Virus record (IMG/VR): IMGVR_UViG_3300046171_000255
Span: 1 to 28,967 of that record
Length of the DNA: 28,967 bases
Direction: 5' to 3' (one strand)
Origin: a virus
Under the pieces are notes generated by a model. That model had not been told where the DNA came from, did no database searches, and saw only the letters and a program-made list of their open reading frames with translations. Shown here piece by piece: positions 10,745 to 28,880 of the stretch. Positions within the stretch are counted from its first letter, which is position 1, and each line of letters opens with the position of its first letter. The translations under genes were made by a program, and so were the position numbers.

Positions 10745-11825
10745 TCAACCGACAGAAGGTGCGGTGAGTGCTACAGGTGTAGACTCAGCAGCAGCAAGGT
10801 CGAGTGGGAAGTTGTGTGCATTTCTTTCATGCATAACTTCCATACCAAGACCTGCACGGTTCAATACGTCTGCCCATGTGTTGAGCACACGACCCTGACC
10901 ATCAAGGATGGACTGGTTGAAGTTGAAACCGTTCAGGTTGAATGCCATCGTGGAAACACCAAGTGCGGTGAACCAGATGCCAACAACAGGCCATGCAGCA
11001 AGGAAGAAGTGCAAGGAACGGGAGTTGTTGAATGAAGCGTATTGGAAGATCAAACGACCGAAGTAGCCATGTGCTGCGACGATGTTATAGGTCTCTTCCT
11101 CTTGACCGAACTTGTAACCATAGTTCTGTGACTCTTGCTCAGTTGTCTCACGAACAAGCGAGGAAGTAACGAGACTTCCGTGCATAGCAGAGAACAAAGA
11201 TCCACCGAATACCCCAGCAACGCCGAGCATGTGGAACGGATGCATAAGAATATTGTGCTCTGCCTGGAAGACGAGCATATAGTTAAAAGTACCAGAGATA
11301 CCAAGAGGCATAGCATCGGAGAAAGAACCTTGACCGAAAGGATATACGAGGAAGACAGCAGATGCTGCAGCGACTGGAGCAGAGTATGCTACACAGATCC
11401 AGGGACGCATACCTAAACGGTATGAAAGTTCCCACTCACGTCCCATATATGCATAGATGCCGATAAGGAAGTGAAATACTACGAGTTGGAAAGGACCACC
11501 GTTATACAGCCACTCATCAAGTGATGCGGCTTCCCAGATGGGATAGAAGTGAAGACCAATTGCGTTGGAAGATGGAACAACTGCACCAGAGATGATGTTG
11601 TTACCATACATGAGTGAACCTGCGACGGGTTCACGGATGCCGTCGATGTCCACGGGGGGAGCAGCGACGAAGGCGACGATGAAACAGATGGTTGCTGCCA
11701 ACAGAGTTGGAATCATCAGTACGCCGAACCAACCGACATAGAGGCGGTTATTGGTAGAAGTTACCCACTCGCAGAAAGATTCCCACGGATTGAGATTGAT
11801 TTTGTTGTAGTGTAGCGTTAGCCAT
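10745..11825 (-). CDS. psbA: Photosystem II D1 protein, frameshifted near the start
   Basis: D1 of the photosystem II reaction centre. From the internal methionine of [11 protein letters not shown] the frame is open to the end (VALTAPSVG), with the [12 protein letters not shown] segment carrying manganese-cluster ligands and the C-terminal processing site, and the [20 protein letters not shown] loop. The true start is ATG at 11825 ([10 protein letters not shown]...): the frame from there stops after 25 codons, while [20 protein letters not shown] is present one frame over. Exactly 40 bases separate ATG from the conserved Trp codon where D1 proteins have 39, so there is one extra base between about 11786 and 11800. 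Corrected length is 359 residues, normal for D1. It is transcribed from the dual promoter near 11990 and ended by the terminator at 10697-10730. Confidence 0.94.
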
Positions 11826-13248: not shown

Positions 13249-14037
13249 CTACTTTCCTTCAAATCCAGGAGGTAATGTTCCCAAAAACGGATCATACTCA
13301 AAGATTTTACCCCAATCCTGATCTATGGCACTAGTTTTCCAGAAGTTCCAAAGTCCATCATGACTACTTCTATGAAAAACATCCACATGAATATCATGGA
13401 TATCTGAACCCAAATCAATTTTGTATAGAAAGAGTGGAATAGCAAATGTATTACCGGCGTTGTAAATGAGGTCGTCTGCTACTGCCCTAGGTTTCATACC
13501 TTGGTCCAACTTGTATTTTTCTCCACGACAATGAAGGTCAACCAATTTTTGAGCATGACGACGTGTAATCATATAACATGCTGTGGAGAAATCATTTACA
13601 AACCTTCTATGCATTTTCATATAAATCTGTGCTGGATTGATTACAGCAAGTTGTACTACATCATAATCATATGAAACTTTGGCGTTAAACTCTTTCCATG
13701 TGAATGGCCAGTAAGTAATTGTAGAAATATCACAATCATCTTCCATCATCAAGGCGCATGGAGCATCAGTCTCCAAAAACATCTTCATCGCATTAAGATG
13801 TGAAGTAACACAACCAACTTCTCCAGAAGTCATGTTGTCAGGGTATCTTCCCTTCAGTATTTCACTCAGGTCATTATCACCCCTACCATCATAGGCAGAG
13901 ACACGAGTATATTTTTCCAGTTCCCAATACTTGAATTGATCCTCCATGTATTTCCATCTATCAGTTTTATCATCAAGATTGATACAATAGATTGGTGGAA
14001 GACCTTTGACTTTGGGTAGTGCTTTATTTCTGTCCAT
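13249..14037 (-). CDS. GT25 family (LPS-type) glycosyltransferase
   Basis: A 262-residue enzyme of the GT25 group, which includes LPS galactosyltransferases and collagen galactosyltransferase-like proteins. Marks of the family are CINLDDKTDRW (residues 18-28), the SGEVGCVTSHLNAMKMF segment (71-87) and the metal-binding MMEDDCD (98-104). It would transfer a hexose, often galactose, to a growing glycan. It overlaps the upstream methyltransferase by 14 bases and is the last gene of the sugar run. Acceptor and donor are not determined by the sequence. Confidence 0.87.
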   Translation of the reverse strand: MDRNKALPKVKGLPPIYCINLDDKTDRWKYMEDQFKYWELEKYTRVSAYDGRGDNDLSEILKGRYPDNMTSGEVGCVTSHLNAMKMFLETDAPCALMMEDDCDISTITYWPFTWKEFNAKVSYDYDVVQLAVINPAQIYMKMHRRFVNDFSTACYMITRRHAQKLVDLHCRGEKYKLDQGMKPRAVADDLIYNAGNTFAIPLFLYKIDLGSDIHDIHVDVFHRSSHDGLWNFWKTSAIDQDWGKIFEYDPFLGTLPPGFEGK

Positions 14038-14647
14038 TTCTTAAAATAAAAAATCCATTACCATGAGGATGTGGTTCAACCCACTTCTCCTTAATTGACC
14101 CAAGAGAATATGAGAACTTCATAAGTTCCATATCCTGCGATTCAAACATTTTAATCCACCACTCTTCATCTTTTTTGGTAACGTGAGTAACGTCTACCTC
14201 ATACTCTCGGATCCTAAACCTATCATCATCTCCAAGAGGAATTACAAAGAAAAACTGGTCTGATTTCTTTTTAAAATTTTGAAGAACAAAAGGAATGTCT
14301 TCTACTTCAACATGCTCAAGAACATCCTTACAAATGAGCAGATCATAAACCTTATCATTTGGGAGAGAAATATAGTCCCTCACATTAGGATGACAATTAT
14401 CAACAGCATACTCACTAATATCTTCACCCCAAGCATCACATCCAATAATACGCAGAGCATTTACTAGGAAACCTTTAGCACAACCATAATCAACACAAGT
14501 CTGAAATTCAAAGTTATTTTGAATATCAAGTGCTTCAGGAATGGAACGAGTGGGCATCCACTTGTAATCTTCATATCCAGAGATATGTTTTCTTACACCA
14601 TCCTCATAATAGTCTTTAGTAAATTGATGAGTGTCAAGCGAAATCAT
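14024..14647 (-). CDS. Class I SAM-dependent methyltransferase
   Basis: A 207-residue methyltransferase. Motif I is CVDYGCAKGFLVNAL (residues 51-65), followed by the acidic strand end WGEDIS and the motif DLLICKDVLEHVE, the usual signature of small-molecule and sugar O-methyltransferases. It overlaps the radical SAM gene by 14 bases and the GT25 gene by 14, so it is translated with them. It may methylate a sugar on the glycan; the substrate is unproven. Confidence 0.85.
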   Translation of the reverse strand: MISLDTHQFTKDYYEDGVRKHISGYEDYKWMPTRSIPEALDIQNNFEFQTCVDYGCAKGFLVNALRIIGCDAWGEDISEYAVDNCHPNVRDYISLPNDKVYDLLICKDVLEHVEVEDIPFVLQNFKKKSDQFFFVIPLGDDDRFRIREYEVDVTHVTKKDEEWWIKMFESQDMELMKFSYSLGSIKEKWVEPHPHGNGFFILRNGQK

Positions 14648-15758
14648 TATGAATAGTGTCAGTTAAAATGTCGTCAATCAGTTCGTTCTGCATGGCATAC
14701 TTACAGTAATGGCATCCATGATGTCTGCGTGTTGGACCTTGAGTATAGAACTCTTCAATACCATCAATATCGCAGACGGCAAACTGTGACTCGGGAACAT
14801 AGTTGTAGTTGTTCTCAATAGACAGTTCGGCAGATGGACAAGCATAGATGTACCCATCAGTGAATAGGAATGGTTTGACCATATGCATATAGCAGTGGTC
14901 ATTTCTACGTTCACCTTTGAAGTTGAAGTCGGAGAGGAACGCATACTTCAGTTTGCGTCCACGGTCCTCTTCATATGCCACAATGATGTCACGAATGGTA
15001 TCAATGTCTTTCTCAGTTTCCTTTACATCCTTAATGGCGTTGAAGGCAATACGACAAGGAATACCATTATCCTCCACCCAGTCTAACATACGGATGAAGT
15101 TTTCGGTAGTCTGAAATTTCTTAGAAAGCACACGCTTATTCTTTACATCACTCCAATCTCCAATAATGTTGGGATTCTTAGAGGTCTCTAGATTCTCATC
15201 CCAAACATAAGCAGCAGATGGCTTACAATTGGTGCCTTCAAAAACACTCAGATCATAATCATAACCCTCATAGAACCCATACATTCCCAGACGTACCCAG
15301 TCAAATAATTCTACAATATCTTTCTTGATAGGACGATCGGCACCAAAGCGTGCTCCATTAGTACAGATACCAAGACTGAATCCCAAGTCTTTAGCATACT
15401 GGACAATTTCTTTGAAATGTGGGTGGATACTAGGTTCACCACCACCAGTGAACTCAACACCAGTTACACCAATTGCCTTGAAACTCTCAAGTGCCTGGAA
15501 TACTTTTTCCGTAGGCATCTTTTCTGAAATGTCTCTATTCGCAAAGCAACAAAAAGAACAAGTCAGATTACAAGCATTCGTCAGTGAGATGTGTGCCATC
15601 ACTGGCGAAGGTGGTTTGCCTTCCTGAAGGTTCTGTAACTTTGGAAGTTGTTTCAGAAGTTTGGTAAGGTTACTACTATAACTTCTACCATCCTCTTTAT
15701 CTTGTGTTTTTCTAATCGTTCCATCTTCATTGAAGATGCTTTCGCCGCGATAAACCAT
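14634..15758 (-). CDS. Radical SAM protein with C-terminal cysteine cluster
   Basis: A 374-residue radical SAM enzyme. The [4Fe-4S] motif CX3CX2C is at Cys63, Cys67 and Cys70 (ACNLTCSFCC). A GGGEPSIHP segment forms the SAM-binding region. The C-terminal part has further cysteines (YACPSAEL, and GCHYCKY at Cys349/Cys352), as in SPASM-type proteins holding extra iron-sulfur clusters. Such enzymes modify peptides or sugars by radical chemistry. Between a glycosyltransferase and a methyltransferase in a sugar cluster, a role in modifying a sugar is the natural guess, but the substrate cannot be read from the sequence. Confidence 0.88.
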   Translation of the reverse strand: MVYRGESIFNEDGTIRKTQDKEDGRSYSSNLTKLLKQLPKLQNLQEGKPPSPVMAHISLTNACNLTCSFCCFANRDISEKMPTEKVFQALESFKAIGVTGVEFTGGGEPSIHPHFKEIVQYAKDLGFSLGICTNGARFGADRPIKKDIVELFDWVRLGMYGFYEGYDYDLSVFEGTNCKPSAAYVWDENLETSKNPNIIGDWSDVKNKRVLSKKFQTTENFIRMLDWVEDNGIPCRIAFNAIKDVKETEKDIDTIRDIIVAYEEDRGRKLKYAFLSDFNFKGERRNDHCYMHMVKPFLFTDGYIYACPSAELSIENNYNYVPESQFAVCDIDGIEEFYTQGPTRRHHGCHYCKYAMQNELIDDILTDTIHNDFA

Positions 15759-15764
15759 AGTTCT

Positions 15765-16472
15765 TTAATAATGTTCTTTCCACTGGTGGACTACAGGGTA
15801 ATCCATATAATTAGGTTCACGAACTTCGCCTAACCATTCAGCACTCTGATATTTATATCCCCTCTTGCCAAAATGATACACAGTGCATATGTCAACAATA
15901 CCAAGTCCTTTGTATCCACCAGGGTAAGAGTGTTCTTCTATCAGTTCGTCCTGATTCTCTGTGATGTCTTTGATAATGTCATCGTAGATACTCAAAAAGA
16001 TTTCTACATTGTACATACTACCACCACACATACCATATCTTTCAATATCCAACCCACCCTGCTCAAGGCAGTCGCGTCTCATATTTCTAGGCATTACACC
16101 ACCAATTCTAACACCTTTTAAGGCAAATGGTTTATCCAATTTGAATGGTTGCCGAATCCATACATCATCCTCAAGGAACATCATATACTCGGTTTCACAT
16201 AAGTCACAAGCAAGTTTATGTCTTTTGAAAAACTCTGATGTTCTGTAAGCGTTGTAGAAATCTCTATTGTATCCATTCTCTGCGTTGCCAAAGATATTCT
16301 CCCTCCAACGATAATGGCAAGAATACTTCTCAGCAAGATCAGAGAAATCCAACCCTCCATCAGAAATAAGGAGAATTGGATTATCAGGAAAGGACTTTCT
16401 AAAGTTATCTAAAACAAACTCTGTCGCTTTCTTATTGTTATAACAAGGAAAGACTGCACCAAACTCAACCAT
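15765..16472 (-). CDS. GT2-like glycosyltransferase
   Basis: A 235-residue glycosyltransferase-like protein. The N-terminus MVEFGAVFPCYNNKKATEFV and the PILLISDGG strand are typical of GT-A folds, and FLEDDVWI (residues 99-106) is the metal-binding site. A GGVMPRNMRRDCLEQGG loop and a late H/W-rich segment would shape the acceptor site. I start at ATG 16472, which overlaps the carbamoyltransferase stop by one base; a GTG one codon earlier is an alternative. It is followed after six bases by the radical SAM gene. Confidence 0.75.
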   Translation of the reverse strand: MVEFGAVFPCYNNKKATEFVLDNFRKSFPDNPILLISDGGLDFSDLAEKYSCHYRWRENIFGNAENGYNRDFYNAYRTSEFFKRHKLACDLCETEYMMFLEDDVWIRQPFKLDKPFALKGVRIGGVMPRNMRRDCLEQGGLDIERYGMCGGSMYNVEIFLSIYDDIIKDITENQDELIEEHSYPGGYKGLGIVDICTVYHFGKRGYKYQSAEWLGEVREPNYMDYPVVHQWKEHY

Positions 16473-18043
16473 CACTTCACCTCAAACAAATAATCTTCAA
16501 TGACCACATAGTCCATTTTGGTATTATTTAACGCATACAGAGCATCCTCAATAGAGGACAGAATGGGATATCCACGAATGTTAAAAGAAGTATTCAACAA
16601 AACATTTGTTTCAGAGATCTTACCAAACTCCGTCAGTAATTCATAAAACTCTGGATGTGATTCTTCAGTCACAGTCTGAAGACGTGCAGTATTATCAATA
16701 TGAGTAATAGATGGAAGATTCTCAACATACTCATCCTTGACCTTTGGAGCATAACTCATATACTCAAGGTTATCAAAATTGCGCGATTCAAAATACTTTG
16801 AAGCATCTTCCTTCTTACAGAAAGGAGCAAAGGGACGATACCACTCACGGAACTTAACCTTGGTATTCAGAATGTCTTTCATCTCCCTGATGTTAGGATC
16901 ACAGACAATAGAACGATTACCGAGTGCCCGTGGTCCTACTTCAGAATCACCATAGACAAGTCCAATAATATTACCATCCTTGATTAGTTGTGCCAGTTCT
17001 TTTTTATCAATCTTTCTGGCATTATACTTTTCAATATACTCAGGGAAGAGTTCCTTGTCAGTCAAAGGCAGACCAGCATAAGTGATATTAACATTCTTCT
17101 CCGGTTTCTTGTAGAGAAACATGTGGCCCAGAGACAAACTTCCATCATGAGGATTTGGTGGGACATAGATCTGTCGGTTGGTGTGCTTCTTCAGTTGCTC
17201 ATTTACCAGAACATTCAGGGCACAACCACCAGTCAATACTAAAGGAACATCATTATCATACCGATCAAGAACACTAAAGAAAGCAACCTCAAACGCTCTC
17301 TGTGCCGTAGCAGCGATATCATATCCCTCTTGACCCTCAAACACCCAGTTCTCCAGTGGGTTGTCCCAGGGGTTATCCAAATTCTTCAGAGGCAGTCCAG
17401 TCTTTTCTGCAAGTTGTTTATAATCACGATTGAAGAAGAACATAGCAAAAGCAGGAACATGCTCTTCAATTACATTCCCGTAAGCACAGAGACCCATCAT
17501 CTTACCAGATAGAGCAAGTTGATGACGACTCTTCTCTGCCACCTCACGGATCATAGAACCACAGAGAAGATATCCACCACCAAAGTCAGACGGAACTTTC
17601 TCTAGAAGTTTGATACCTTTCTTGTTAGCAGTATAGACATTAAAATGTCCATCATCACCACCACCATCATATGATACAACAAGTGCCTCTTCAAACGGAG
17701 ACATGTAAAAAGCAGAAGAGGCATGACACTCATGATGTCTGGCGATCGTCCTTACATTGTCAGTGTTGAATACTTCCTTGAGTATGGAAGGTGGTTGAAC
17801 ATATCCATCCGTGGATACAAGAACTGCTTCATAGTCGTTCTCAACACCCCAATCTTCCTCAGCAATCTCACGACACAGAGTTAAAATCTCTTTCTGATAC
17901 TCAGGAGTATTGTCTTCGTGAAGACGGAAATATCTCTTCTTTACAAGACGCTCTACTTCAATAGTGTAGTATTCATCAGTCTTTGCATTATAAAAAGACA
18001 CGTTGGCATCGTGTCCTGCAAAAATACTAACTAGGTTCTTCAT
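16472..18043 (-). CDS. Carbamoyltransferase, NodU/CmcH family
   Basis: A 523-residue O-carbamoyltransferase. It transfers a carbamoyl group from carbamoyl phosphate, through carbamoyl-AMP, to a hydroxyl on a sugar or small molecule. Evidence: the N-terminal FAGHDANVSF, the HHECHASSAF metal-binding motif (residues 103-112), SYDGGGDDGHFNVY, LTGGCALNV, and the C-terminal YGDSEVGPRALGNRSI followed by FREWYRPFAPF. Length matches cyanophage and bacterial members. The ATG overlaps the upstream GT4 stop by four bases. The group is known for NodU (Nod factor) and cephalosporin carbamoylation; here a glycan carbamoylation is inferred from context. Confidence 0.95.
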   Translation of the reverse strand: MKNLVSIFAGHDANVSFYNAKTDEYYTIEVERLVKKRYFRLHEDNTPEYQKEILTLCREIAEEDWGVENDYEAVLVSTDGYVQPPSILKEVFNTDNVRTIARHHECHASSAFYMSPFEEALVVSYDGGGDDGHFNVYTANKKGIKLLEKVPSDFGGGYLLCGSMIREVAEKSRHQLALSGKMMGLCAYGNVIEEHVPAFAMFFFNRDYKQLAEKTGLPLKNLDNPWDNPLENWVFEGQEGYDIAATAQRAFEVAFFSVLDRYDNDVPLVLTGGCALNVLVNEQLKKHTNRQIYVPPNPHDGSLSLGHMFLYKKPEKNVNITYAGLPLTDKELFPEYIEKYNARKIDKKELAQLIKDGNIIGLVYGDSEVGPRALGNRSIVCDPNIREMKDILNTKVKFREWYRPFAPFCKKEDASKYFESRNFDNLEYMSYAPKVKDEYVENLPSITHIDNTARLQTVTEESHPEFYELLTEFGKISETNVLLNTSFNIRGYPILSSIEDALYALNNTKMDYVVIEDYLFEVK

Positions 18044-18990
18044 TTGACAAGTGATACAAGGTGTTCAACAGCAGGAATGTAGTGCTTCTTCAGAACTGCT
18101 TTCCATTCAAACTCTTTAGCATACTCAAGAATCTCATCTCTATGTGCGATAGAGTATTCCCTGTTTTCAATTATAGCATTCTCTACAAATTCTAGATCAT
18201 TTACCTTAGACTCTGGAATGATTGTGATGAATTCCTTGTCGGCATCAAGATTTGCTTTGCCCCATTCCGTCACAACAACACCAAGTCCAGCAGCAAGAGC
18301 TTCCATACAGACTAAAGGATGTGCCTCACCGTCTGACAGGAGAACAAGATTACCATAATCAGTCAAGTCCTTAAACAAAACTTCCTTGGACCATTCACCA
18401 AGATAGTTCTTTTCAGTATTAAATCTATTGTCAGCAATATTTCCAGCAAACCAAAGACTATCAATACTCTGGAACATATGCTGACGCTTACGATAGTCAA
18501 TCTTCGCAAGGTAAATACTGCGGTTAGGATACTTGGGTATATCCGTTGTGCGGAATCTAGAAATATCTACACCATTTGGAGTGACAAAAAGTTTTTTATT
18601 CTCAATATTAGACATCACCCGATACACATTCTTGATGCCTTCAGACAAACAGAATACATTTGGTTTGATCTGAGTAAAAGCATTTAGGACATTCACATAT
18701 CCATTAAACATTTCAGGACGCTCAAGATACCCAAAGTGACTTGTAATGGCACATGGATATTGAATATAAGGAATGATAGGAATAAACTCATCATAATGAA
18801 CATGAACAAAGTCAGGTCTAAACTCATTAATTTGATCAATGATTTGACGACCATCTTTAGTGTTGATGATTTTCACTTCGTGCCCCAGTTTCTCCAGAGC
18901 ATTCTTGGTATCCCAGATAAGGATCTCTACAGCACCCCAACCTGTAGGAGGGATAGGCATGATACCAGGTCCAACTAATACAATTCTCAT
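18040..18990 (-). CDS. GT4-like glycosyltransferase (GT-B fold)
   Basis: A 316-residue retaining glycosyltransferase of the GT4 type. The N-terminal domain has VGPGIMPIPPTGWGAVEIL, the glycine-rich acceptor loop; the C-terminal domain starts after FVTPNGVDISRF and holds the EX7E motif EAHPLVCME (Glu222 and Glu230) that binds the nucleotide-sugar. It is shorter than many GT4 enzymes but both domains are present. It overlaps its neighbours by four bases on each side (ATGA). Confidence 0.9.
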   Translation of the reverse strand: MRIVLVGPGIMPIPPTGWGAVEILIWDTKNALEKLGHEVKIINTKDGRQIIDQINEFRPDFVHVHYDEFIPIIPYIQYPCAITSHFGYLERPEMFNGYVNVLNAFTQIKPNVFCLSEGIKNVYRVMSNIENKKLFVTPNGVDISRFRTTDIPKYPNRSIYLAKIDYRKRQHMFQSIDSLWFAGNIADNRFNTEKNYLGEWSKEVLFKDLTDYGNLVLLSDGEAHPLVCMEALAAGLGVVVTEWGKANLDADKEFITIIPESKVNDLEFVENAIIENREYSIAHRDEILEYAKEFEWKAVLKKHYIPAVEHLVSLVK

Positions 18991-19793
18991 CGTTTACCTA
19001 ACTCCGTAAATAACTCCATGTGCTTACCAGTGTATCTCTCAAAGACAGCAAAATCGTCAGGATACTTCTTAACCAGATAACCAAAAGCAATCTGTTCATT
19101 ATTAACAAACCCTTTCTTTATCATAAGATTTTCTAATAGTTCCTTTATATGTGTAGAAACTTTTTTTATAGATTCGGGTCCTCCACCAAACATAGATCCC
19201 AAGATGAAAGAACGATTGTCTAGAAGATACTCTTCTGGGATCTCATCTGCTTCAGCAAGATCTTTGTAGAACTCCATGTTCATTTGTATCAGGAAGCTGT
19301 CCTCCATCTCATTTAAAGACTCTACAGCATTAGGACTAGGATAGTCAAGTGCAGTATCATATCCCTCAAAGAATCGTGAAGATCCTGCATCCATCCAGAA
19401 GAAATGCTTGCTGTTATATGGGTTCTCGTTTGCTGCTTGCTTCAACCATTCAAACTTAGAATACTGAATGATGGAATACATGGAGTGCTGACACTCAATA
19501 CGACTAGGATCAGCAATCATCTCTTTGTAGTCGTCAGACTCAATAATCTTATCCAGATTATCCTTAAGATAGTAATATGGAATCTCTTCAATCTCTTGAG
19601 TGATAACCGTAGTGGGAACTGCCAGTCTCCTCTCTTCAATAAAGTCTTGAACATCCTTGGAGACGAACAGAATCATCGGACATTTCAGTTTCAGAAAGAT
19701 GTCAAACCACCGCAGATACTCTTCCCACTTCCTACCATCCATACCCTCTCTATGAATATTAAATAGGGCAGATACAATAGTTACATCATTCAT
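18987..19793 (-). CDS. HtrL/YibB-type protein, probable glycosyltransferase
   Basis: A 268-residue protein resembling the HtrL/YibB (WlaTC) family found in LPS and capsule loci. The N-terminus VTIVSALFNIHREG and the motif HFFWMDAGSSRFF (residues 130-142), which provides a metal-binding aspartate like a DXD, agree with a GT-A fold. A second conserved loop near FILGSMFGGG would hold the donor. The donor and acceptor are unknown. Both ends overlap neighbours by four bases. Confidence 0.72.
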   Translation of the reverse strand: MNDVTIVSALFNIHREGMDGRKWEEYLRWFDIFLKLKCPMILFVSKDVQDFIEERRLAVPTTVITQEIEEIPYYYLKDNLDKIIESDDYKEMIADPSRIECQHSMYSIIQYSKFEWLKQAANENPYNSKHFFWMDAGSSRFFEGYDTALDYPSPNAVESLNEMEDSFLIQMNMEFYKDLAEADEIPEEYLLDNRSFILGSMFGGGPESIKKVSTHIKELLENLMIKKGFVNNEQIAFGYLVKKYPDDFAVFERYTGKHMELFTELGKR

Positions 19794-20749
19794 AACAGAC
19801 TCATAATTGATTGAACACGATTGACAAAAGTATGATTCTCCTGAACATACTTCATAGCATCCTTGATGAACTTGTAATCAGTTCTCTTTTCCATAGCATC
19901 ATAGAAAAGTTGTGCCGTATCTTCTTGATAGAGGCAGTGACCTTCAAACTCTTTGTAGACCTCAGGAGAGTTTGTAGTTCCCAGATGTCCCCAACTGATA
20001 GACTTGAAGGTTCGGCAAGGTATATATCCATTCTTGATATGTTCAGGACCACGGATATCCACACCTAAGATGGACTTCATAGTTCTTTCCTTGACTTGCT
20101 CTTCAGTCAAAGGATTCTGCCAGGGATCATTATGAACGAACTCAATACCATTTTTCTGACACTCTACCAGGAAAGGTTTGAACGTACTGAAGTTCTCACA
20201 TACTCCATGATTTGACAGATTACCACTGAAGTAGATTTTGTTTTCTCTTGAATGGTTGATGTCCTCAAAGTCAAACTCCTCAGGAAGGATATTTGCTGCC
20301 CAACTGATATAGAACTTGTCATAGTCATCAGTCCAGTATTGATGATGATCATTCAACACCTGAACTCTACGGGTGGTTTTGGGTTGATAGTAAGTGCATG
20401 GACCAACCTTTTTTACCTTTTCTTTATCAAGGGTGAAGGCATAAACATGGTCCTTGTGCCAGATGTCATTTGTCCTTACATCAACAAATCGTTTTACTTT
20501 ACCCAGATACTTATCAGGATTTGGACAGACGTGAACAAAGTATGTGCTAGTTTCGTTGATCGGAATATTTTTATCAGCAAATCCCTCAGTCCAGAACAAG
20601 CAGTCATTCCAATCAAAGTCTTCTGGATACTCTTCATCGTGGAACCAGTAAGTATCATATCCAAGATGCTTGAAAGCTTTATAAAAAGCAGCGTGGATGT
20701 AAGAGTGGGTGTGTGAATAGAGGGGATAACCCCAGATGACTACCTTCAT
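19790..20749 (-). CDS. Putative glycosyltransferase, GT-B-like
   Basis: A 319-residue protein I cannot place in a named family. It opens MKVVIWGYPLYSHTHSYIHA, a beta-alpha start with an acceptor-loop look, and its C-terminal half (ILGVDIRGPEHIKNGYIPCR, KSISWGHLGTTNSPEVYKEF) resembles the donor domain of GT-B enzymes, where a late loop selects the sugar. No signal peptide or membrane segment is seen. It overlaps both neighbours by four bases and belongs to the glycan cluster. Function assigned mainly by context. Confidence 0.6.
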   Translation of the reverse strand: MKVVIWGYPLYSHTHSYIHAAFYKAFKHLGYDTYWFHDEEYPEDFDWNDCLFWTEGFADKNIPINETSTYFVHVCPNPDKYLGKVKRFVDVRTNDIWHKDHVYAFTLDKEKVKKVGPCTYYQPKTTRRVQVLNDHHQYWTDDYDKFYISWAANILPEEFDFEDINHSRENKIYFSGNLSNHGVCENFSTFKPFLVECQKNGIEFVHNDPWQNPLTEEQVKERTMKSILGVDIRGPEHIKNGYIPCRTFKSISWGHLGTTNSPEVYKEFEGHCLYQEDTAQLFYDAMEKRTDYKFIKDAMKYVQENHTFVNRVQSIMSLL

Positions 20750-21519
20750 TTCAAATCCACCTGCAGTTCTTTAGAGTTTTCTTTAATCAATCTACGCTGT
20801 TCTTTAATATCAATACTTCCTCTTTTCATCATAGTGACGCCAAGGTCAGAGATTTCACCAGGAACCTCAGCATCACAAATACACTGCTCAATCAACTCAT
20901 GCATATGGCGTAGACCATCTTGATAGTAGGTAATAATCTTACCATAAGTTTCATTCACCGTTTTCATATGCTCTAATGGACCAAACCAGAACCAGTCCTG
21001 GTATTCTCTTCCTACTCCACACTGAATAGAACCATCCATCATATAGATTTTATCAGTATCAAACTCGGAGAAGTCAAGAGGTTCGGCAAACTCAAGGTCT
21101 GTGCGAGCACGGATAATCAAATCATAGTCCTTCAGAGCCTCAAAAGACATAGACTGATTAATTGAATACCACTGACTACGTTGCCGTGTGATGATACTAC
21201 GAACAATATCAGCATCTAGACTTGGGTCAAAAGCACACTTGGTAGGAAAGTCTTCATATCCAAAGTACTCTTTTGGTTTATGTGGTTCAATAATAATTTC
21301 TTTGGGACGAAACTTGCTGACAAACTCCTCCATAGGATCATACTCTACAGGATAGGTATCATCACTTTCCCATACAAAAGTTTTACCCTTGTAGGATTCG
21401 TCCCACCACATGTGAGCAAATACATCTACTTCATTCTTTTCAAAAATACCTTTTTGATATTGTTCAAAAGATTTGTCAATATATCTGGGTTGACCAGAAA
21501 AACAAAGTGCAATTTTCAT
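20746..21519 (-). CDS. Glycosyltransferase-like protein, paralogue 1 of a pair
   Basis: A 257-residue protein with MKIALCFSGQPRYIDKSFEQ at the start, shared closely with the next gene upstream. Common blocks are VDVFAHMWWDE, the YDLIIRARTDLEF motif (residues 132-144, likely a DXD-type metal site) and a YQDWFWFGPLEHM block. The two paralogues differ in most loops, as expected of enzymes with a shared fold but different sugars. This arrangement is seen in glycan clusters of large phages and viruses, but I do not know a characterised member. The gene overlaps its neighbours by one and four bases. Confidence 0.65.
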   Translation of the reverse strand: MKIALCFSGQPRYIDKSFEQYQKGIFEKNEVDVFAHMWWDESYKGKTFVWESDDTYPVEYDPMEEFVSKFRPKEIIIEPHKPKEYFGYEDFPTKCAFDPSLDADIVRSIITRQRSQWYSINQSMSFEALKDYDLIIRARTDLEFAEPLDFSEFDTDKIYMMDGSIQCGVGREYQDWFWFGPLEHMKTVNETYGKIITYYQDGLRHMHELIEQCICDAEVPGEISDLGVTMMKRGSIDIKEQRRLIKENSKELQVDLK

Positions 21520-22280
21520 CAGAATCTAGGTAATGTAATATTAATAGGCAGTGGATAAGATTTAATATTGAAGAAATCAATAATCTTTTTATGGATGAGT
21601 TCGCAACACCAGGCACCACCTGTCTGTTCCATACACGCATCAATACAATAGTCTAGCATAGGAAACGCAGACATGAAAGGGTCCATAACTTTGCTACCAC
21701 CAAAGTTAAACCAATCGTTGATCATTCCATCTGGTTGATTTTGAGTCCCTGAGTAAAATACAACATCTTTTGGAAATAACTCATACTGTATTCCATTATA
21801 AACTTGGGCATCAGTCCTCATACGAATTACATAATCATATCGGAAATCATTTTCATACTCATACTCTTTCTTCAACAAAGATGCTCTCATCAAAGAATAA
21901 TGATATGAGATGATGTTGTTTACATCACGAATCTCAAAGTTTGGTTCTTTTTCATAATCTGGTTTACCACCCTTATATCTGTCAAGACTAGGCATGTAAT
22001 TACTTGACAACTCTGAGTTGAAAAACTTTTTACTCTTTTCAACTAAAAGTTTTTTTGGTTCGTAAGTTTGTTTGAATATATCTATGGCATTAGGACCGAT
22101 GCGCTGGTCCTTCCAACCACCATCTCCACCATACTTATATGGTTTTGTTTGAAGGTCTTCATCAAACCATAGATGTGCAAAGACATCTACGTCGTAGTCT
22201 CCAATAACATTCGCCTTGGTTAATTGAGAGACTTCGTTGACAAACCTAGGTTGTCCAGAGAAACATAAAGCAATTCTCAT
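21519..22280 (-). CDS. Glycosyltransferase-like protein, paralogue 2 of a pair
   Basis: A 253-residue paralogue of the following gene, with the same opening (MRIALCFSGQPRFVNEVSQL), VDVFAHLWFDED, the YVIRMRTDAQVY motif (residues 150-161) and a DWFNFGGSKVMD block. A TGGAWCCELIHKK stretch near the C-terminus is not obviously shared. The pair probably arose by duplication. A glycosyltransferase role is inferred from the RTD motif and the cluster; catalysis is not demonstrated. The ATG overlaps the HAD-fusion stop by four bases. Confidence 0.65.
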   Translation of the reverse strand: MRIALCFSGQPRFVNEVSQLTKANVIGDYDVDVFAHLWFDEDLQTKPYKYGGDGGWKDQRIGPNAIDIFKQTYEPKKLLVEKSKKFFNSELSSNYMPSLDRYKGGKPDYEKEPNFEIRDVNNIISYHYSLMRASLLKKEYEYENDFRYDYVIRMRTDAQVYNGIQYELFPKDVVFYSGTQNQPDGMINDWFNFGGSKVMDPFMSAFPMLDYCIDACMEQTGGAWCCELIHKKIIDFFNIKSYPLPINITLPRF

Positions 22281-23331
22281 CCTAAAAATTCACTCAAGTT
22301 TTCATTATTTCTTGGAATATTTATTGCCTCGCAAGAAGGGAAGGAATTGCTTCTGGCAAAATCATTAACCACTACTCGCTTACAGTGTGGCAGTCCCATA
22401 ACCAGTTGATCAAATGGTATTCCTTTCGTTTGCAACTCCATAATCGTGAGTTGTCTAAATTTATCTGGTCTACTTGTAGTTAAAACTATCTTTGTTTTAC
22501 CTTGTTCATGCAACTCAGCAAGAAAATCAATATTGTTTTCTATTGGTTCTCCTGAGCCAACGTAAGGTGGAAAGTGATGTGAAGAATTAGTAATCAAAGT
22601 GCCGTCAATATCTACAAATAAACATTTGTATTGTGACTTGTACTTGTTCCATGCATCAAGTGTACCCCAGTCTTTGAAATCAGTTGTCTTAGTTCCATAA
22701 AATGTAGAACCAGATAACATCATCTCAAATATAATGTGACTGATGTAACATTCACCGTCCATATCTTGTAGTTTTTCAAAAGTTTTACAGAACTCTTTGC
22801 ATCTGCAAAACCATAACCACCACTTGAGAACGTGGAACTAATAACTTTCTTTTCTACTATGTTAGTAACAACATCATTTACATCAAGATCAACATAACTC
22901 TTAGTCCGAGCGTTGATATCATCCATGTCATTCAAATCAAAGTATGCAACTTGATTTCTTTCTTCAACATCACATCTATAGAAACCATCAGAGTCCTTAA
23001 TAAAAACAAAACCATCTAAATCATATCCACTCAGGAATGTATAGACAGTTTCAGATTGCGAGTCTGTTTGTTCAGGCAGTAATACTATGTTTGATTTTTC
23101 ACGAAGTCCAGCGTCATCTAATTCAGAAACAAAACCTTTCATAAACTGATACTTGTCCTCATGTTGTTGAAGACAAATAAAATATATGTTGTCAAAGAAA
23201 TCTAAATTAAGCCCACTAATCGCCTCTGTTACCATCATGCGATTTGTCATTGGATGTGACAACATCCACTTCGGTCTTAGTTTCGGAAATCTGGTTGATC
23301 GCCCCGCCATCGGAACTACAAGAGATCGCAT
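22277..23331 (-). CDS. Nucleotidyltransferase-HAD phosphatase fusion, interrupted by one lost base
   Basis: As written this is two frames. The first opens MRSLVVPMAGRSTRFPKLRP, the nucleotide-binding loop of sugar-phosphate nucleotidyltransferases. The second carries a HAD phosphatase domain with CLFVDIDGTLITNSS (Asp241 and Asp243 of the repaired protein), VLTTSRPDKF and KRVVVNDFARS. Restoring one A in the run read as three (22796-22798 on the plus strand) joins them through FADAKEFCKTFEKLQDMDGE with no stop and gives 351 residues. Similar fusions occur in capsule loci and would activate a phosphorylated sugar or alcohol to a nucleotide form and dephosphorylate a partner. The precise substrate is unknown. 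It lies between the kinase-like gene and the paralogue pair, which suggests one pathway. Confidence 0.8.
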
Positions 23332-24117
23332 ACAACTCTGTTGATTTTACTATACCCTCTAGTATAACTCTTTGATCATCAGAAGTCAAGTAGGGTTCGA
23401 TTCTTAAAGCATTCATAACATCAAGAATGTGAAAGCTTTCATTCATAAAAGATTCATATCTGACTTCAAGTTTATCCCATATGTATTGATAGATTTGATG
23501 TATTCGATTTGAATATACATCTTGATTTCTGACTGCCCATAGATGATGTAAGTCCTGTTTGAGTTTGACTAGATCAGATAGAAATGTATCAACATAACAA
23601 TCTAGAAAATCTATAAAGAACAATCGGTTCTTGTGAAATATAATATTAGCAAAGGTTAGATCACCATGACAGAATGTATGTGGAACTATTATTTTATTAT
23701 CTTCTACATATTTTCTTAAGAATTCAATATATTTTTTGTGAGAACTTTTTTCTTTAAGACTATCAATCTTTGTTAGTATTTTATTTGTCGCATCAAAACT
23801 TCGAGCAGTTGATATGAGTGTGTCAAAGTAATCAAAGAGAGTTGATACTACAAACTCAACATCATTTACAGAGGCACTCGAAAAGAATTCTTCAAAACTT
23901 TTACCAGCAATATACTCCATATCAAAATAATTTTGTTGATATCATATACCTTTGGTGCATCTATATTTTTATAGATTCGATTACCAAACACTACTTGTTT
24001 ATCTGCTTGAGATAACAATCTTGAATTATAATCTGTCGTAGGAGAATATTTTCTTAATACTCTATCATTAATTAATTCTAAACTGCAACCAGATAAACCA
24101 GTGTTCAGTTTTGTCAT
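23216..24117 (-). CDS. APH-type kinase-like protein, interrupted by one lost base
   Basis: A kinase of the aminoglycoside/choline-kinase fold, seen as two frames. The N-terminal part (MTKLNTGLSGCSLELINDRV) ends at KVYDIN; the next frame opens MEYIAGKSFEEFF. One extra A in the run of four at 23931-23934 joins them as DINKNYFDMEYIAGKS. Brenner's motif is FCHGDLTFANII (His151, Asp153, Asn158 of the repaired protein) and the metal-binding Asp is in FIDFLD (Asp170). Such enzymes phosphorylate small alcohols or sugars. The ORF runs 116 bases into the next gene; the true stop may be near 23329, where one added base would give TAATG. Choline, ethanolamine or sugar are possible substrates; the sequence does not decide. 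Confidence 0.78.
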
Positions 24118-24832
24118 TGATGATACTTAGAATTATCCTTTGATACATGAACTATCTTTGGTTCAAACTGACATTGAGATGTAAAGTCCTCTGGGAAAGC
24201 AAACGCAGGGTGTAAAACTTTCACATCAAGTCTTCTCTCTGAAAGAACTTGTTCATCTGACTCTCATCATGCCATACAGCAATAGTGTCCCTCGTCTCAT
24301 CATCTTTGGTGCGACGGTCAAGTTCTGCCATCATACCGATGACTTCAGGAACCTTACCACCCCACAGACAACCCTGCCAATAGGTTGAAATGTCATCATC
24401 CTCTGTGATAGCAGCACGCGACTCTGGGTTCGTCTCAAAAGCACCTGGATACTGTGTGTGAGGGTTCATACCCAAGAAATGGCAAGGATGATGAACACCT
24501 ATGAAAAACTTGTCCGTAAAGATGTCTTCAGGTTTTACTTCATCAACCAGAATCATATCAGCATCAAGAAACAAGAAGTAATCATACTCCTGAATCTCTT
24601 CAGATGCTTTTAGTAAGGTGCCAAACCTATAGAGGGTGATGTATGGCCAGGGAAGATGCTCCTGATAATATGGAGTGATGTTGTCAGGAATACCTTCCAA
24701 CTCACCATCAGTAAAAACCAAGTATCTTTTCTCACATCCAGGGGCAAGGTATTTTTCACAAGACTCATACCAACTGGGAAGAAAGTCAAGATACTTGTTA
24801 GTGCCAATAAAGGCAACTGCAAGTTTAGGCAT
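24114..24832 (-). CDS. GT6 family glycosyltransferase (ABO-type), frameshifted near the 3' end
   Basis: A retaining GT6 enzyme, the family of blood-group A/B transferases and alpha-1,3-galactosyltransferase. Landmarks are FLFLDADMILVDE with the DXD metal site (residues 90-92), HHPCHF, the STYWQGCLWGG acceptor segment (149-159) and VWHDES (186-191). The first frame stops after 203 residues (24221). One extra A at the run 24233-24234 keeps the frame through RLDVKVLHPAFAFPEDF and KIVHVSKDNSKYH, the normal GT6 C-terminus, to a stop overlapping the kinase ATG by four bases; length 239. It would add Gal or GalNAc in alpha-1,3 linkage, probably to a fucosylated galactose. Cyanophage GT6 members are known to retain DXD; most bacterial ones have NXN. 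Confidence 0.9.
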
Positions 24833-25514
24833 TTTTTACAAAAGTCAAACGACAGACATTCAAGTAAGAGAAGTTTGGAACACTGAACAAGTTCTTTTTA
24901 CGATTTGTCCAACGACCTACAAGGGAAAGACCTTGCTCTTTTGCCAAAGCGATGATGGAAGATGGTTTCATAAACTCACCAACATCAGTATTCATATTAA
25001 CATCCGAGGATATAATAACATGACCACCCGGTTTCAGGCAACGGTTAATCTCTCTAAAGATTTTAGTAAACTGCTGCTCACCATCTGGACATACACCACT
25101 AGGTCCGCAGAAGTGAGCATATGCACAGAGATCAATGAAAACATCAATACTCCCATCTTCTACCGTAGGGAACCAGTCAAAGGCATTTGAGTTAACCATA
25201 TTGACATTACTTCCTTCACAGTCATGGTCAAGACGACCACCACACACAGGGGTGTCTACACCAGTCACATCATTACCCCAAGAGTCAATAATATGAGGAA
25301 CACATCCTCTAGCACATCCAAGGTCTACCACCTTTACACCATTATCTGGATACAGTTCTTGGAACCTCTCCAGAACACTAATCCATTTGATGATGGCATC
25401 AGTCTTAGTCCACAAGTCTTGATGAGGAAAGTTTTGAGGATATTCCCTCGCTGCCATTACATTTAATGAGTGATCTAAATCACCAAGATTAAACAGAGTA
25501 TTAGTAATAGTCAT
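24825..25514 (-). CDS. Class I SAM-dependent methyltransferase
   Basis: A 229-residue methyltransferase. Motif I is VKVVDLGCARGCVPHI (residues 60-75), followed by VTGVDTP for the ribose-binding acid, the strand GSIDVFIDLCAYAHF and the late motif CLKPGGHVIISSD. This is the standard core of O- or N-methyltransferases. It overlaps the sulfotransferase-like stop by four bases and the GT6 ATG by eight bases, placing it directly in the fucose/GT6 segment. Likely it methylates a sugar hydroxyl, but nothing in the sequence sets the substrate. Confidence 0.86.
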   Translation of the reverse strand: MTITNTLFNLGDLDHSLNVMAAREYPQNFPHQDLWTKTDAIIKWISVLERFQELYPDNGVKVVDLGCARGCVPHIIDSWGNDVTGVDTPVCGGRLDHDCEGSNVNMVNSNAFDWFPTVEDGSIDVFIDLCAYAHFCGPSGVCPDGEQQFTKIFREINRCLKPGGHVIISSDVNMNTDVGEFMKPSSIIALAKEQGLSLVGRWTNRKKNLFSVPNFSYLNVCRLTFVKNA

Positions 25515-26164
25515 TTGATATGAAATTCAGGAAGTGAGTTATACAGTTCAGTAGCATCCTTTAGAATAGAAGTAAATTCATCCTTCATATCATCTGGGAT
25601 GAGGTCAATCGTAGAGTTTCTATCTCTCTGAACATATTGCTCAGGAACTTTCTTTTGACCTAAGAAGTCAACGAATATTTCTTTCCCATATTTCCACTGA
25701 ACATCTGACTTGACACAGAGAACTGGGTATTTGATCTGTCTTTGTGTCCAGTTGTATATATGTTCATATGTCATGAACCAGTCTTGACCACCTCTTACAT
25801 ATTCTTCTAAAGAATATTTTTTTACAAACTGAGGATGAACCCGATAGATTTCTTTTGTCTGTGGATGAATTTCTACATTATCAGTCCGCGTAGGATGTAG
25901 AGGAAGACCTTTATTCTCAATATGAGTGACTGGCATATCCCTACGAAAGATAGAGATAATAGATTGAACGGGGTCACCCATCACAAAGATTGCTTTCTCA
26001 ATCTCATCATAAACTGGTGGATACAGAGTGTGCTTACATCGTCCAAAGTTAATACCTTGGTGAAAATGATCTCGGTTACTTTCAATCCCAAGACCGTTAA
26101 TGATTTTGAATAGTTGACTAGAGGCACAACCACCAATACTATTCAATACTGTTACTTCTTCCAT
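25511..26164 (-). CDS. Sulfotransferase-like protein
   Basis: A 217-residue protein with a modified P-loop NSIGGCASSQLFKI (residues 8-21) and the segment FVMGDPVQSIISIFRRDM (60-77), which has the Arg/Ser pattern used by sulfotransferases to bind the 3'-phosphate of PAPS. These suggest transfer of sulfate to a sugar, but the P-loop deviates from the classical form and the later helices are not diagnostic. I start at the ATG at 26164, which overlaps the GT11 stop by one base (TGATG); a start at 26188 would overlap more. It could instead be another P-loop transferase. Confidence 0.6.
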   Translation of the reverse strand: MEEVTVLNSIGGCASSQLFKIINGLGIESNRDHFHQGINFGRCKHTLYPPVYDEIEKAIFVMGDPVQSIISIFRRDMPVTHIENKGLPLHPTRTDNVEIHPQTKEIYRVHPQFVKKYSLEEYVRGGQDWFMTYEHIYNWTQRQIKYPVLCVKSDVQWKYGKEIFVDFLGQKKVPEQYVQRDRNSTIDLIPDDMKDEFTSILKDATELYNSLPEFHIK

Positions 26165-26967
26165 CAGATTACCTTCCAACCTTTGCAATATAAGTCTTTC
26201 AAATTATGTTTATCATCAGGAAACCACTTCTTAGGAGCAATCACCTTTCCGCGATTACCTAACCAAGCTGCCCACCAAGAGAATGAAGAGTTAGCAATAA
26301 TAAAGTCAGAACACATACTCATCAGACACTGATCAATATATCCACTATCATTTTCGGAAATCATAAACCGATCATCCTGAAAAAGGTCTTGCTCGTGACA
26401 CCAGGAAGAGTCATCAGAGAATACAATAACAGGAACGTCATATTCAAATTGCTTAAGTGCCTTCTTGTAATAAGACATATCAAGGGCACAGTGGTTTGAA
26501 TTTGTAAGATAATCCTTTCTACGAATATGAAGTCCAATGACTTGATCAACACCAAGACCATCAATCATCTCCTCACAAGGTTCACGAATTTCATCTTTGA
26601 ATGTAAAGTTGTGACGAATTTCTTGCTCTACATTCTTGAAATACTTTTCACTTTGAAAGAATCCCCAAATGTTTGTCCAATCAGGACATCTCTTATGTAA
26701 CTCTTCATTATAATGAAAGTTACCTTCAAACGCAGTAGGTCTTCCAACATCAATACTTTGAATATTCAGAACTGATGTTGTCTCCATAGTGAAACAATCA
26801 AACAGTTCTGTTCTATTAGGATTTCCTAGACCATCATCAACCGCATCCTGATAAAAGGGAAAACAATATTCCACACCCGTGTTAGCAGCAACACCACGGA
26901 GTGCTGCATATTGAAACATTTGATTACCAATACGTCCCAATCTTCCCAGATTGTTAAATCCAATCAT
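26164..26967 (-). CDS. Alpha-1,2-fucosyltransferase (GT11)
   Basis: A 267-residue GT11 fucosyltransferase. The motif GRLGRIGNQMFQYAALRG (residues 8-25) forms the start of the fold, VIGLHIRRKDYL (143-154) binds GDP-fucose, VIVFSDDSSWCHE follows, and FIIANSSFSWWAAWLG is the family's late motif. It transfers fucose from GDP-L-fucose to O-2 of galactose, the step that makes the H antigen in animals. It directly follows the GDP-fucose synthase gene, overlapping it by 14 bases, so donor and transferase are made together. Confidence 0.95.
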   Translation of the reverse strand: MIGFNNLGRLGRIGNQMFQYAALRGVAANTGVEYCFPFYQDAVDDGLGNPNRTELFDCFTMETTSVLNIQSIDVGRPTAFEGNFHYNEELHKRCPDWTNIWGFFQSEKYFKNVEQEIRHNFTFKDEIREPCEEMIDGLGVDQVIGLHIRRKDYLTNSNHCALDMSYYKKALKQFEYDVPVIVFSDDSSWCHEQDLFQDDRFMISENDSGYIDQCLMSMCSDFIIANSSFSWWAAWLGNRGKVIAPKKWFPDDKHNLKDLYCKGWKVI

Positions 26968-27889
26968 GATTTAAAAAATAATTGTAGGTTCGCTGAAGAC
27001 CTTCTTCAATACCAATCTGTGGATACCATCCAGTCTGCTTAATTCTAGAAACATCCATAACCTTACGCAACGTTCCGTTAGGTTTACTGGTGTCCCACAT
27101 TATAGCACCTGTGTAACCGACCACATCTGCGACGGTTTCTGCAAGGTTCTTAATAGTTATATCAGTTCCTGTACCCACATTAATGATGTTTTGTGGATCA
27201 TTATATTCATTCATCAGATGAACACAAGCATCAGCAAGATCATCCACATATAAGAACTCACGCATCGGAGAACCATCACCCCAGCAAGTTACAGTAGGTT
27301 GATTGGTTTCTTTTGCCTCATGGAATTTGCGAATAAGACCAGGAATAACATGAGAGTTTTCTGGATGAAAATTATCCTTCACACCATACAGATTACAAGG
27401 CATCACAGAGATAGCGTTGAACCCATACTGCTCATGATATGACTGACACATCTTGATACCAGCAATCTTGGCAATGGCATAAGCATCATTCGTTGGTTCT
27501 AGAGTACCGGTCAGCAATTGGTCTTCTTTGATGGGAATATTCGTATGCTTAGGGTAAATACACGATGAACCAAGAAAAAGAAGTTTCTTGGCACCAGTAT
27601 AGTAAGCAGCATCTATAACATTATTCTGAATCATCAGATTGTCATAGATGAACTCTGCCTTATGGTTTTGATTACCAATAATTCCACCAACCTTAGCCGC
27701 AGCAAGAAAAACAAAATCAGGTTGATGGATAGAGAACAAATTCTCTACTTGATCTTTTTCTCTAAGATCACATTCCTTACTAGGAATCATGACCAGATTC
27801 TTATGTCCCAGTTGACGAAGTTTACGAACAATAGCAGAACCAACCAGACCGTTGTGTCCTGCTACAAAAATTTTAGACTTATTGTCCAT
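26954..27889 (-). CDS. fcl: GDP-L-fucose synthase
   Basis: A 311-residue bifunctional epimerase/reductase that turns GDP-4-keto-6-deoxy-mannose into GDP-L-fucose with NADPH. The Rossmann nucleotide loop is [13 protein letters not shown], the catalytic Ser/Cys region is GSSCIYP (107-113), and Tyr137/Lys141 form YAIAK. The C-terminal [20 protein letters not shown] motif is typical. I begin at MDNKSK (27889); an upstream ATG at 27907 lacks a reason to be used and increases overlap with gmd. It overlaps gmd by 11 bases and precedes GT11, a three-gene fucose unit. Confidence 0.95.
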
Positions 27890-28880
27890 AAAGCACCATG
27901 TCCTCAATTAGTTCTTTAAACGAAATTTCAGGTTCCCAACCAAGTTTTTCTTTTGCCTTCGTGGCATCACCAAGTAAAGATTCAACTTCAGCAGGTCGAA
28001 AATACTTTTTACTAACCTTTATTATAGGGCGTTTAGTATTCCAATCATATCCCACTTCATTTATACCTTCACCCAACCATTCAAGGTTCATATTATAATG
28101 TCTTGCCGCCATTTCTGCAAACTCTCTAACAGAGTATTGTTTACCTGTTGCGATCACATAGTCATCGGGTTCATCCTGTTGTAGCATTAGCCACATCGCT
28201 TTGGCATAGTCTTTCGCGTGTCCCCAATCCCTTCTAGAATCGAGATTGCCGAGAGATAATACGTCTTGTTGTCCAGATGAAATTCGAGACAACCCAATGG
28301 TAATTTTTCTGGTGACAAAGGTTTCTCCCCGTCTTGGACTTTCGTGATTGAATAGTATTCCAGAACTTGCATGTAATCCATAAGACTCCCTATAGTTTTT
28401 AACAATCCAAAATCCATATAACTTTGCTACGCCATATGGAGAGCGTGGGTAGAATGGTGTTGTTTCGGTCTGTGGAACCTCCTGAACGAGTCCATAAAGT
28501 TCGCTAGTGGATGCTTGATAGATGCGTACAGTATCCTCCATACCAAGAATACGGACTGCCTCTAGAACTCTCAAAGTGCCTAAAGCATCAGTCTGTGCAG
28601 TATATTCCGGCAGTTCAAAAGAAACCTTCACATGACTCTGAGCACCAAGATTATAGATCTCATCAGGTTTGACCTTCTGAATCACCTTGATAATATTCGT
28701 AGAGTCTGTCAAGTCTCCATAATGAAGATGCAACCGTTGATAGATATGATCAATCCTATGAGTATTGATCAGAGAAGATCTCCGAATAATACCATGAACT
28801 TCATATCCCTTTTCGAGAAGAAGTTCTGCAAGGTAAGATCCATCTTGACCCGTAATACCAGTAATCAGGGCAGTTTTCAT
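27879..28880 (-). CDS. gmd: GDP-mannose 4,6-dehydratase
   Basis: A 333-residue short-chain dehydratase that oxidises GDP-D-mannose to GDP-4-keto-6-deoxy-D-mannose, the first step of GDP-fucose formation. Evidence: NAD(P)-binding [18 protein letters not shown], the catalytic STSELYG (124-130) and YXXXK at Tyr149/Lys153 in [12 protein letters not shown], the [18 protein letters not shown] loop and the [17 protein letters not shown] strand, all specific for GMD. The ATG overlaps the upstream stop by four bases. The same intermediate could also feed rhamnose or perosamine pathways, but the adjacent fcl points to fucose. Confidence 0.97.

Follow-up and report, generated by a model that had tools for sequence, protein, structure and literature searches.

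The gmd-fcl-GT11-GT6 run of a viral contig, a probable L-fucose form of a glycan module widespread among cyanomyoviruses

Introduction

The cyanophage P-SSM2 carries in one run a guanosine diphosphate (GDP)-mannose dehydratase, an fcl-type epimerase, a family 11 glycosyltransferase (GT11) and a family 6 glycosyltransferase (GT6), encoded by PSSM2_257, 258, 265 and 268, respectively (labels from hidden Markov models). The gmd, fcl, GT11 and GT6 set is also present in ACG-2014f, DSL-LC02, P-SSM5 and AG-345-F15 (L226; labels of this form designate the comparison loci retrieved for this analysis). Here we analyse a run with these four genes in the virus record IMGVR_UViG_3300046171_000255, from a marine virus of cyanobacteria, whose whole 28,967-base stretch is called the window below. 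The combination is not new, being already in older virus records. A sequence-only reading of the window had cited P-SSM2 as a cyanophage with a single GT6, and had singled out the presence of all four genes in a shared run as a striking novelty. Neither statement survives, since P-SSM2, ACG-2014f and DSL-LC02 share the set and, among 50,697 phage records searched, 71 match GT6, 102 match GT11 and 73 match fcl (E<=1e-60).

Repeats of ACG-2014f make up 45/60, 27/60 and 37/60 of the matches listed for GT6, GT11 and fcl, respectively, and GenBank records already carry the names ‘glycosyltransferase family 6’ and ‘family 11’. In the literature, two cyanophages were credited with a GT6 in 2014 (PMC3961637), the S-SCSM1 paper lists gmd, fcl, GDP-mannose 3,5-epimerase (GME) and an alpha-1,2-fucosyltransferase (PMC9602691), and PF03414, GDP-L-fucose and GMD genes are named in the Dishui Lake paper, GT6 being read there as acting on phage DNA (PMC10611076). 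No proposal of a blood-group-like route in phages was found among the titles and abstract openings listed by searches of open-licence papers.

We propose, with a probability of about 0.6, that the run represents, in its L-fucose form, a glycan module widespread among cyanomyoviruses, in which gmd and fcl, then GT11, then GT6 would build a branched, blood-group-like end, most likely, by our guess, on the host envelope.

Results

Enzymes of the run

The sugar-gene run occupies positions 28967 to 13249 of the minus strand, and the part considered here is read in the order gmd, fcl, GT11, a gene without family assignment (25511-26164), a methyltransferase gene and GT6. Successive frames share 1 to 14 bases at all five junctions from gmd to GT6. 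Families were assigned with Pfam, PHROGs, NCBIfam and sequence matches to the PDB (Table 1), and together with the overlaps they bear out the earlier view of a single overlapping run, with a methyltransferase between the two glycosyltransferases.

The gmd product passes the equivalog cut-off of TIGR01472 (556 versus 415 bits), matches PF16363, and has 7kf3 as its best PDB match (E 3e-150), the dehydratase being aligned over nearly its whole length. The best PDB match of fcl is the E. coli GDP-fucose synthetase 1bws (E 2.5e-110), and in this alignment the catalytic Cys acid, the His base and the Tyr-x3-Lys are all in place. Judged by these catalytic residues, the window fcl is clearly assignable to the GDP-L-fucose synthases (GMER), despite an NF047922 score under the equivalog cut-off (469 versus 500 bits). 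Its ATG is at 27889, which gives an overlap of 11 bases with gmd; the query used spanned 26954-27886, one codon short of 26954-27889. GT11 passes PF01531 (E 1.2e-29, 103.9 bits versus a cut-off of 23.9) and matches PHROG 2644 (E 2e-108), and the HxRRxD motif is found in 59 of 60 viral GT11 units, the window among them. A sequence search of the PDB with GT11 gave no relative at E<=0.1.

The gene at 25511-26164 had been read as sulfotransferase-like. This identity was rejected: no Pfam family matches the protein even at E<=1, PDB sequences give chance-level matches only (best E 0.14), and profile comparison with the Sulfotransfer_2 gene of ACG-2014f gives no match. Its AlphaFold2 model is poor, with a mean predicted local distance difference test (pLDDT) of 45.6. 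The protein is nevertheless conserved, with matches at 14 loci (74-98% identity), and the methyltransferase is present at all 14, some of which are on the same contig.

Linkage of GT11 and GT6

Viral loci were selected either by GT6 (best 80 of 123) or by GT11 (n=54), and bacterial GT6 loci (best 80 of 237) were found by patterns and alignment, including the pocket motif. Neighbouring genes were labelled with profiles built for this analysis, within the retrieved flanks. In the viral loci selected by GT6, GT11 is nearby in 75/80 (38/40 clusters at 90%), and in those selected by GT11, GT6 accompanies it in 15/54 (7/30 clusters at 90%). GT11 is also found at 52/80 bacterial GT6 loci (49/76 clusters), and where it forms a separate frame (n=51) it is within 1 kb of GT6 in 30 cases, versus 7.6 expected under random placement within the locus. 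Among 18 loci of annotated phages, 15 have GT11. All these loci are related by descent, so that such counts are not independent trials.

The survey of co-occurrence thus links GT6 with GT11 in phages, and the association recurs in bacteria. Gene order is not fixed, GT6 preceding GT11 in 12/60 units, so the linkage is not merely inherited synteny. That in viruses GT6 rarely occurs without GT11, the reverse not being so, fits a GT6 in need of the GT11 product. This one-way dependence strengthens the suggestion, made earlier for the window, that GT11 may act before GT6.

Two donor routes

L-fucose is 6-deoxy-L-galactose. The Synechococcus phage Bellamy has, immediately upstream of GT11, a gene annotated as an NAD-dependent epimerase/dehydratase. 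Among solved structures, its product is best matched by the Arabidopsis GDP-mannose 3,5-epimerase (E 2e-82, 280 bits; 71 bits for the next enzyme), with whose catalytic residues it aligns. A profile made from four phage GME proteins separates GME from fcl, GME-labelled proteins scoring at least 396 and the highest other score printed being 122.

Among 60 dereplicated viral units having both GT11 and GT6, 29 carry GME, 21 carry fcl, none carries both, and 10 carry neither. A first tally had given 26, 19, 0 and 15, after which whole-record searches gave fcl two more units and GME three more. When 47 chosen records were searched whole, 13 had GME, 20 had fcl and none had both; at E<=1e-20 there were 22 GME matches, nine of which, being cross-matches of fcl-type proteins at 29-35% identity, were not counted. 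Diagnostic residues, taken from the relevant passage of a review (PMC8787198), agree with these labels: the Cys/Lys/Arg signature of GDP-mannose 3,5-epimerase is present in 26/26 GME proteins examined, and the Cys/His signature of fucose synthase in 19/19 fcl proteins, window included. Non-overlap of fcl and GME has a Fisher p of ~6e-9 on the revised counts and 1.8e-6 on the first counts, the units being related and the test therefore not an independent one. In quick trees built from 58 units (without L229 and L131, and with neither-route units not counted), the GT11 tree shows 4 changes of donor state and the GT6 tree 5.

The two routes are also seen within one gene arrangement. A unit made of GT11, the homologue of 25511-26164, the methyltransferase and GT6 goes with GME in L004-L006 and L009-L012, and with gmd and fcl in the window, L002, L003 and L013. 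It looks as if the donor route has been exchanged under a conserved transferase pair. With GME in place of fcl, the first sugar would be L-galactose, and the same GT11-GT6 pair thus seems to be fed either L-fucose or its 6-hydroxy form. Fucosyltransferases are described as accepting GDP-L-Gal in a section of PMC8787198, and plants short of GDP-Fuc as partly substituting L-galactose in one of PMC4935801. The analogy with H-antigen synthesis, drawn earlier for the window, has to be restricted, as 29/60 related units have a GDP-L-galactose route replacing that to GDP-L-fucose.

GME matches 38 phage records, or 37 without one at 28% identity, five of them without annotation. Only one of the 32 annotated records, the GenBank copy of S-SCSM1, names a GDP-mannose-3',5'-epimerase, and the other 31 have UDP-glucose 4-epimerase, nucleotide-sugar epimerase and the like (an example of a GME gene is L082:10113-11195). 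S-SCSM1 is also the only phage shared by the GME list and the fcl list, the latter comprising 60 of the 73 fcl records. No GME was found in the retrieved flanks of the 80 bacterial GT6 loci.

GT6 subtypes and the donor pocket

All 60 viral GT6 units, including the window, have both metal-site Asp residues (DXD), the acceptor-side His (of HP) and the catalytic Glu (of WHDES). At the first metal-site position, 65 of the 80 bacterial GT6 have Asn and 15 have Asp. DXD-type GT6 is therefore the rule in these phages, and NXN is found in most sampled bacterial GT6. In 386 genomes of the phylum of a Gastranaerophilales metagenome-assembled genome, itself included, GT6 is present in 10 and GME (E<=1e-60) in 2; four GT6 loci from this set have the NAN motif in three cases, one not being resolved by pattern.

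The donor-pocket triplet of the 60 viral units is Q-G-C in 43, A-G-G in 15 and other in 2. All 29 GME units have a Q-G-C GT6, and the 21 fcl units have A-G-G in 13, Q-G-C in 7 (window included), and one not resolved by pattern. Q-G-C differs from the A-G-G of the Bacteroides enzyme BoGT6a. Prediction of uridine diphosphate (UDP)-Gal versus UDP-GalNAc from the pocket was dropped, as position 268 does not decide donor choice according to PMC4202792, and Q and C are outside the cases described there.

The GT6 frame of the window

The GT6 of the window passes PF03414 (E 6e-17, 61.8 bits versus a cut-off of 25) and has DAD at the metal site, as well as WHDES. The earlier description of a DXD-bearing GT6 is thus correct for family and motif, but it had missed a frameshift: the frame stops at 24221, and the C-terminal part is found in a different frame, which runs as far as 24114. 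A complete GT6 frame with the C-terminal Lys region was not found in the window, the frameshift preceding that region; among the 60 viral GT6 units, this Lys is present in 59, with one gap. The relative L002 has an intact GT6 of 239 amino acids. Its AlphaFold2 model (pLDDT 92.4) has BoGT6a (4ayj) as its best PDB match, at a template modelling (TM) score of 0.87, and resembles human GTA/GTB at TM ~0.8.

Codons 1-198 of the window GT6 are 96% identical to L002, and the last 45 codons, in the other frame, are 87% identical to L017. A cassette that is mostly L017-like, 22280-24263, is thus set in an L002-like background, with one breakpoint inside GT6 near WHDES. Within it, the main part of the kinase is 87% identical to L017, and its first ~60 residues are 69% identical to L017 and 83% to L023; the parts of the nucleotidyltransferase-HAD protein are 94% and 84% identical to L017. 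Both homologues are single frames in L017 (299 amino acids, stop to stop, for the kinase and 356 for the fusion). Downstream, beyond 22280, identity to L002 is back at ~95%. The window GT6 is chimeric and broken at the edge of a recombinant cassette, and relatives have it intact.

All three frameshifts seen in the sugar run fall inside the cassette. On the same contig, psbD (9561-10615) and the N-terminus of psbA (10745-11825) are split between frames, a pattern suggestive of leftover indels or of several strains assembled together. The breaks are due either to mixed-strain assembly with residual indels, or to decay of the recombinant cassette.

Other features of the window

Besides psbA and psbD, further frames were read from their translations as transaldolase, ferredoxin and plastocyanin, and the six annotated relatives first retrieved are Kyanoviridae. 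A radical SAM protein and a NodU-type carbamoyltransferase (14634-18043) share the sugar run with GT11 and GT6. Three tandem paralogues of ~145 amino acids each (MAFYG...) lie at 926-2249, downstream of the collagen-repeat fibre. A late-promoter motif, TATAAATA, has 2 matches in the window versus 1.84 expected by chance, and is uninformative on timing.

Table 1. Features of the window, with the evidence for each assignment (aa, amino acids).
Feature	Position	Strand	Evidence
gmd, GDP-mannose 4,6-dehydratase, 333 aa, intact	27879..28880	-	TIGR01472, PF16363, PDB 7kf3
fcl, GDP-L-fucose synthase, 311 aa, intact	26954..27889	-	PDB 1bws, diagnostic residues
GT11 (alpha-1,2-fucosyltransferase family), 267 aa, intact	26164..26967	-	PF01531, PHROG 2644, HxRRxD
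Conserved protein of unknown function, 217 aa	25511..26164	-	14 locus matches, no Pfam
Class I methyltransferase, 229 aa	24825..25514	-	PF08241 E 1.3e-7
GT6, first 203 codons, DXD and WHDES, frame broken near 3' end	24221..24832	-	PF03414
GT6 C-terminal part, other frame, L017-like lineage	24114..24263	-	87% over 45 aa to L017 GT6
APH/choline-kinase-like kinase, two frames, in recombinant cassette	23216..24117	-	PF01636 E 3e-7 (main part)
Nucleotidyltransferase-HAD fusion, two frames, in recombinant cassette	22277..23331	-	PHROG 3980 and 1238
Rest of sugar-gene run	13249..22280	-	Pfam, PHROGs
Two PHROG 13607 proteins	20746-22280	-	
Protein of unknown function	19790-20749	-	
YibB/HtrL-like	18987-19793	-	
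Glyco_transf_4 protein	18040-18990	-	
NodU-type carbamoyltransferase	16472-18043	-	
Protein of unknown function	15765-16475	-	
Radical SAM protein	14634-15758	-	
Methyltransferase	14024-14647	-	
GT25	13249-14037	-	
Tail fibre with collagen repeats, 1084 aa	2249-5503		PF01391

Discussion

From the enzyme families and the linkage of their genes we infer the following order of reactions, linkages and sugars. Gmd and Fcl would convert host GDP-mannose into GDP-L-fucose, and GT11 would attach alpha-L-fucose to a galactose-like sugar, probably at its position 2. GT6 would then add a hexose or N-acetylhexosamine beside the fucose, giving a branched end that resembles the blood-group A/B trisaccharides, and the neighbouring methyltransferase, with other genes of the run, may modify the glycan further. 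In the sister form of the module, GME replaces fcl. We give even odds to a broader version, in which a conserved GT11-GT6 pair receives an exchangeable donor cartridge, gmd with fcl or GME. In that case the product of most phages with a Q-G-C GT6 (29/43 units) would be an analogue of the A/B trisaccharide with L-galactose, and switching between the 6-deoxy and the 6-hydroxy sugar would perhaps vary a surface epitope. No description of such an analogue, or of the donor swap, was found in the literature searched.

Several observations weigh against the proposed L-fucose module. Membership of GT11 does not establish the 1,2 linkage, because this family also includes the alpha-1,3 enzyme HhFT2, according to a passage of PMC4202792. 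The GT6 frame of the window itself is broken. GT11 is missing from five viral loci selected by GT6, and while three of these (L042, L045 and L057) are truncated downstream, L065 and L066 are not, and have 10 kb on both sides of GT6 with no GT11. It is likewise absent within the examined flanks of 28/80 bacterial GT6 loci, and from the annotated-phage loci L228, a megaphage, and L230 and L231, two short faecal fragments. As for the donor, neither fcl nor GME accompanies the pair in 10/60 units; L074, L076, L080, L091 and L092 (43-205 kb, searched whole at E 1e-20) have GT11 and GT6 with neither. Finally, S-SCSM1 has gmd, fcl and GME, and the viral locus L140 has all three beside GT11, in both cases with no GT6 match, so that the two routes do not exclude each other wherever GT11 occurs.

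The units with no donor route and the cases with both are also what would be expected if gmd and fcl served another product of the run, GT11 and GT6 being neighbours merely as members of a dense sugar island. The island does hold many other sugar genes, and gmd without fcl accompanies GME in L022 and L043. Against it, fcl and GME replace each other with no overlap in the 60 units, related as these are, and the donor state has changed on both trees; we consider this explanation quite unlikely. Still less credit, to the point of being highly improbable, goes to a modification of phage DNA, which was put forward for the PF03414 proteins of DSL-LC02/03 in PMC10611076: the predicted GT6 structure resembles enzymes with sugar acceptors, and its partners are GDP-sugar makers and GT11.

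The destination of the glycan is a separate matter. Scans of 20 window proteins with Pfam and PHROGs revealed no gene for exporting or ligating a polymer, so the run probably acts on an acceptor supplied by the host or the virion. Our guess is the host envelope, lipopolysaccharide (LPS) or another surface glycan, which would be altered during infection; the S-SCSM1 paper, citing others, also favours a change of the host surface in one of its passages (PMC9602691). The main alternative is a glycosylated virion, in which, for instance, the collagen-repeat tail fibre encoded on the same contig would carry the glycan; this fibre has 105 Gly-X-Y triplets, 13 of them GPT. Collagen-like surface proteins with glycosylated Thr are known, for example BclA of Bacillus. 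Against this, Gly-X-Y runs are missing from the large gene checked downstream of the cluster in three phages, P-SSM2, ACG-2014f and DSL-LC02 (3/3), so that the module seems not to travel with a collagen fibre, as judged from one gene per phage, and we regard virion decoration as the less likely destination, although one to be kept in mind.

The L-fucose module, if correctly read, offers a concrete and testable product for an island that is common in marine cyanophages and loosely labelled ‘LPS gene’. In addition, a GDP-mannose 3,5-epimerase is identified behind other names in nearly all annotated cyanophage records, and the two module forms are a natural series of GT11/GT6 pairs for the study of L-fucose versus L-galactose specificity.

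Among bacterial systems, the run can be likened, by description, to E. coli O86, which has the GT6 WbnI, the GT11 WbwK and a blood-group B epitope; there GT11 forms the H structure, which GT6 then extends (PMC4202792). Most of the bacterial GT6 sampled are NXN, and the phage GT6 are DXD. BoGT6a of Bacteroides ovatus, the best fold match of the phage GT6, shares its catalytic Glu and acts on 2'-fucosyllactose, but it is a metal-independent NXN enzyme (PMC3961637), and its pocket, by alignment, is AGG instead of QGC. Among phages, the P-SSM2 run (PSSM2_257-271) is like that of the window in having dehydratase, fcl-type epimerase, GT11 and GT6 on one strand and in ending in GT25; it differs by a GT6 that is 33% identical and has the AGG pocket (QGC in the window), and by extra genes between fcl and GT11. 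The GME-GT11-GT6 modules of the Synechococcus phages Bellamy, S-CAM9, S-PRM1, S-8S53/55/56 and SynMITS9220M01 are unlike the window in having GME upstream of GT11 and no fcl in the stretch examined, and their transferases, where listed, are 53-57% (GT11) and 57-63% (GT6) identical to those of the window.

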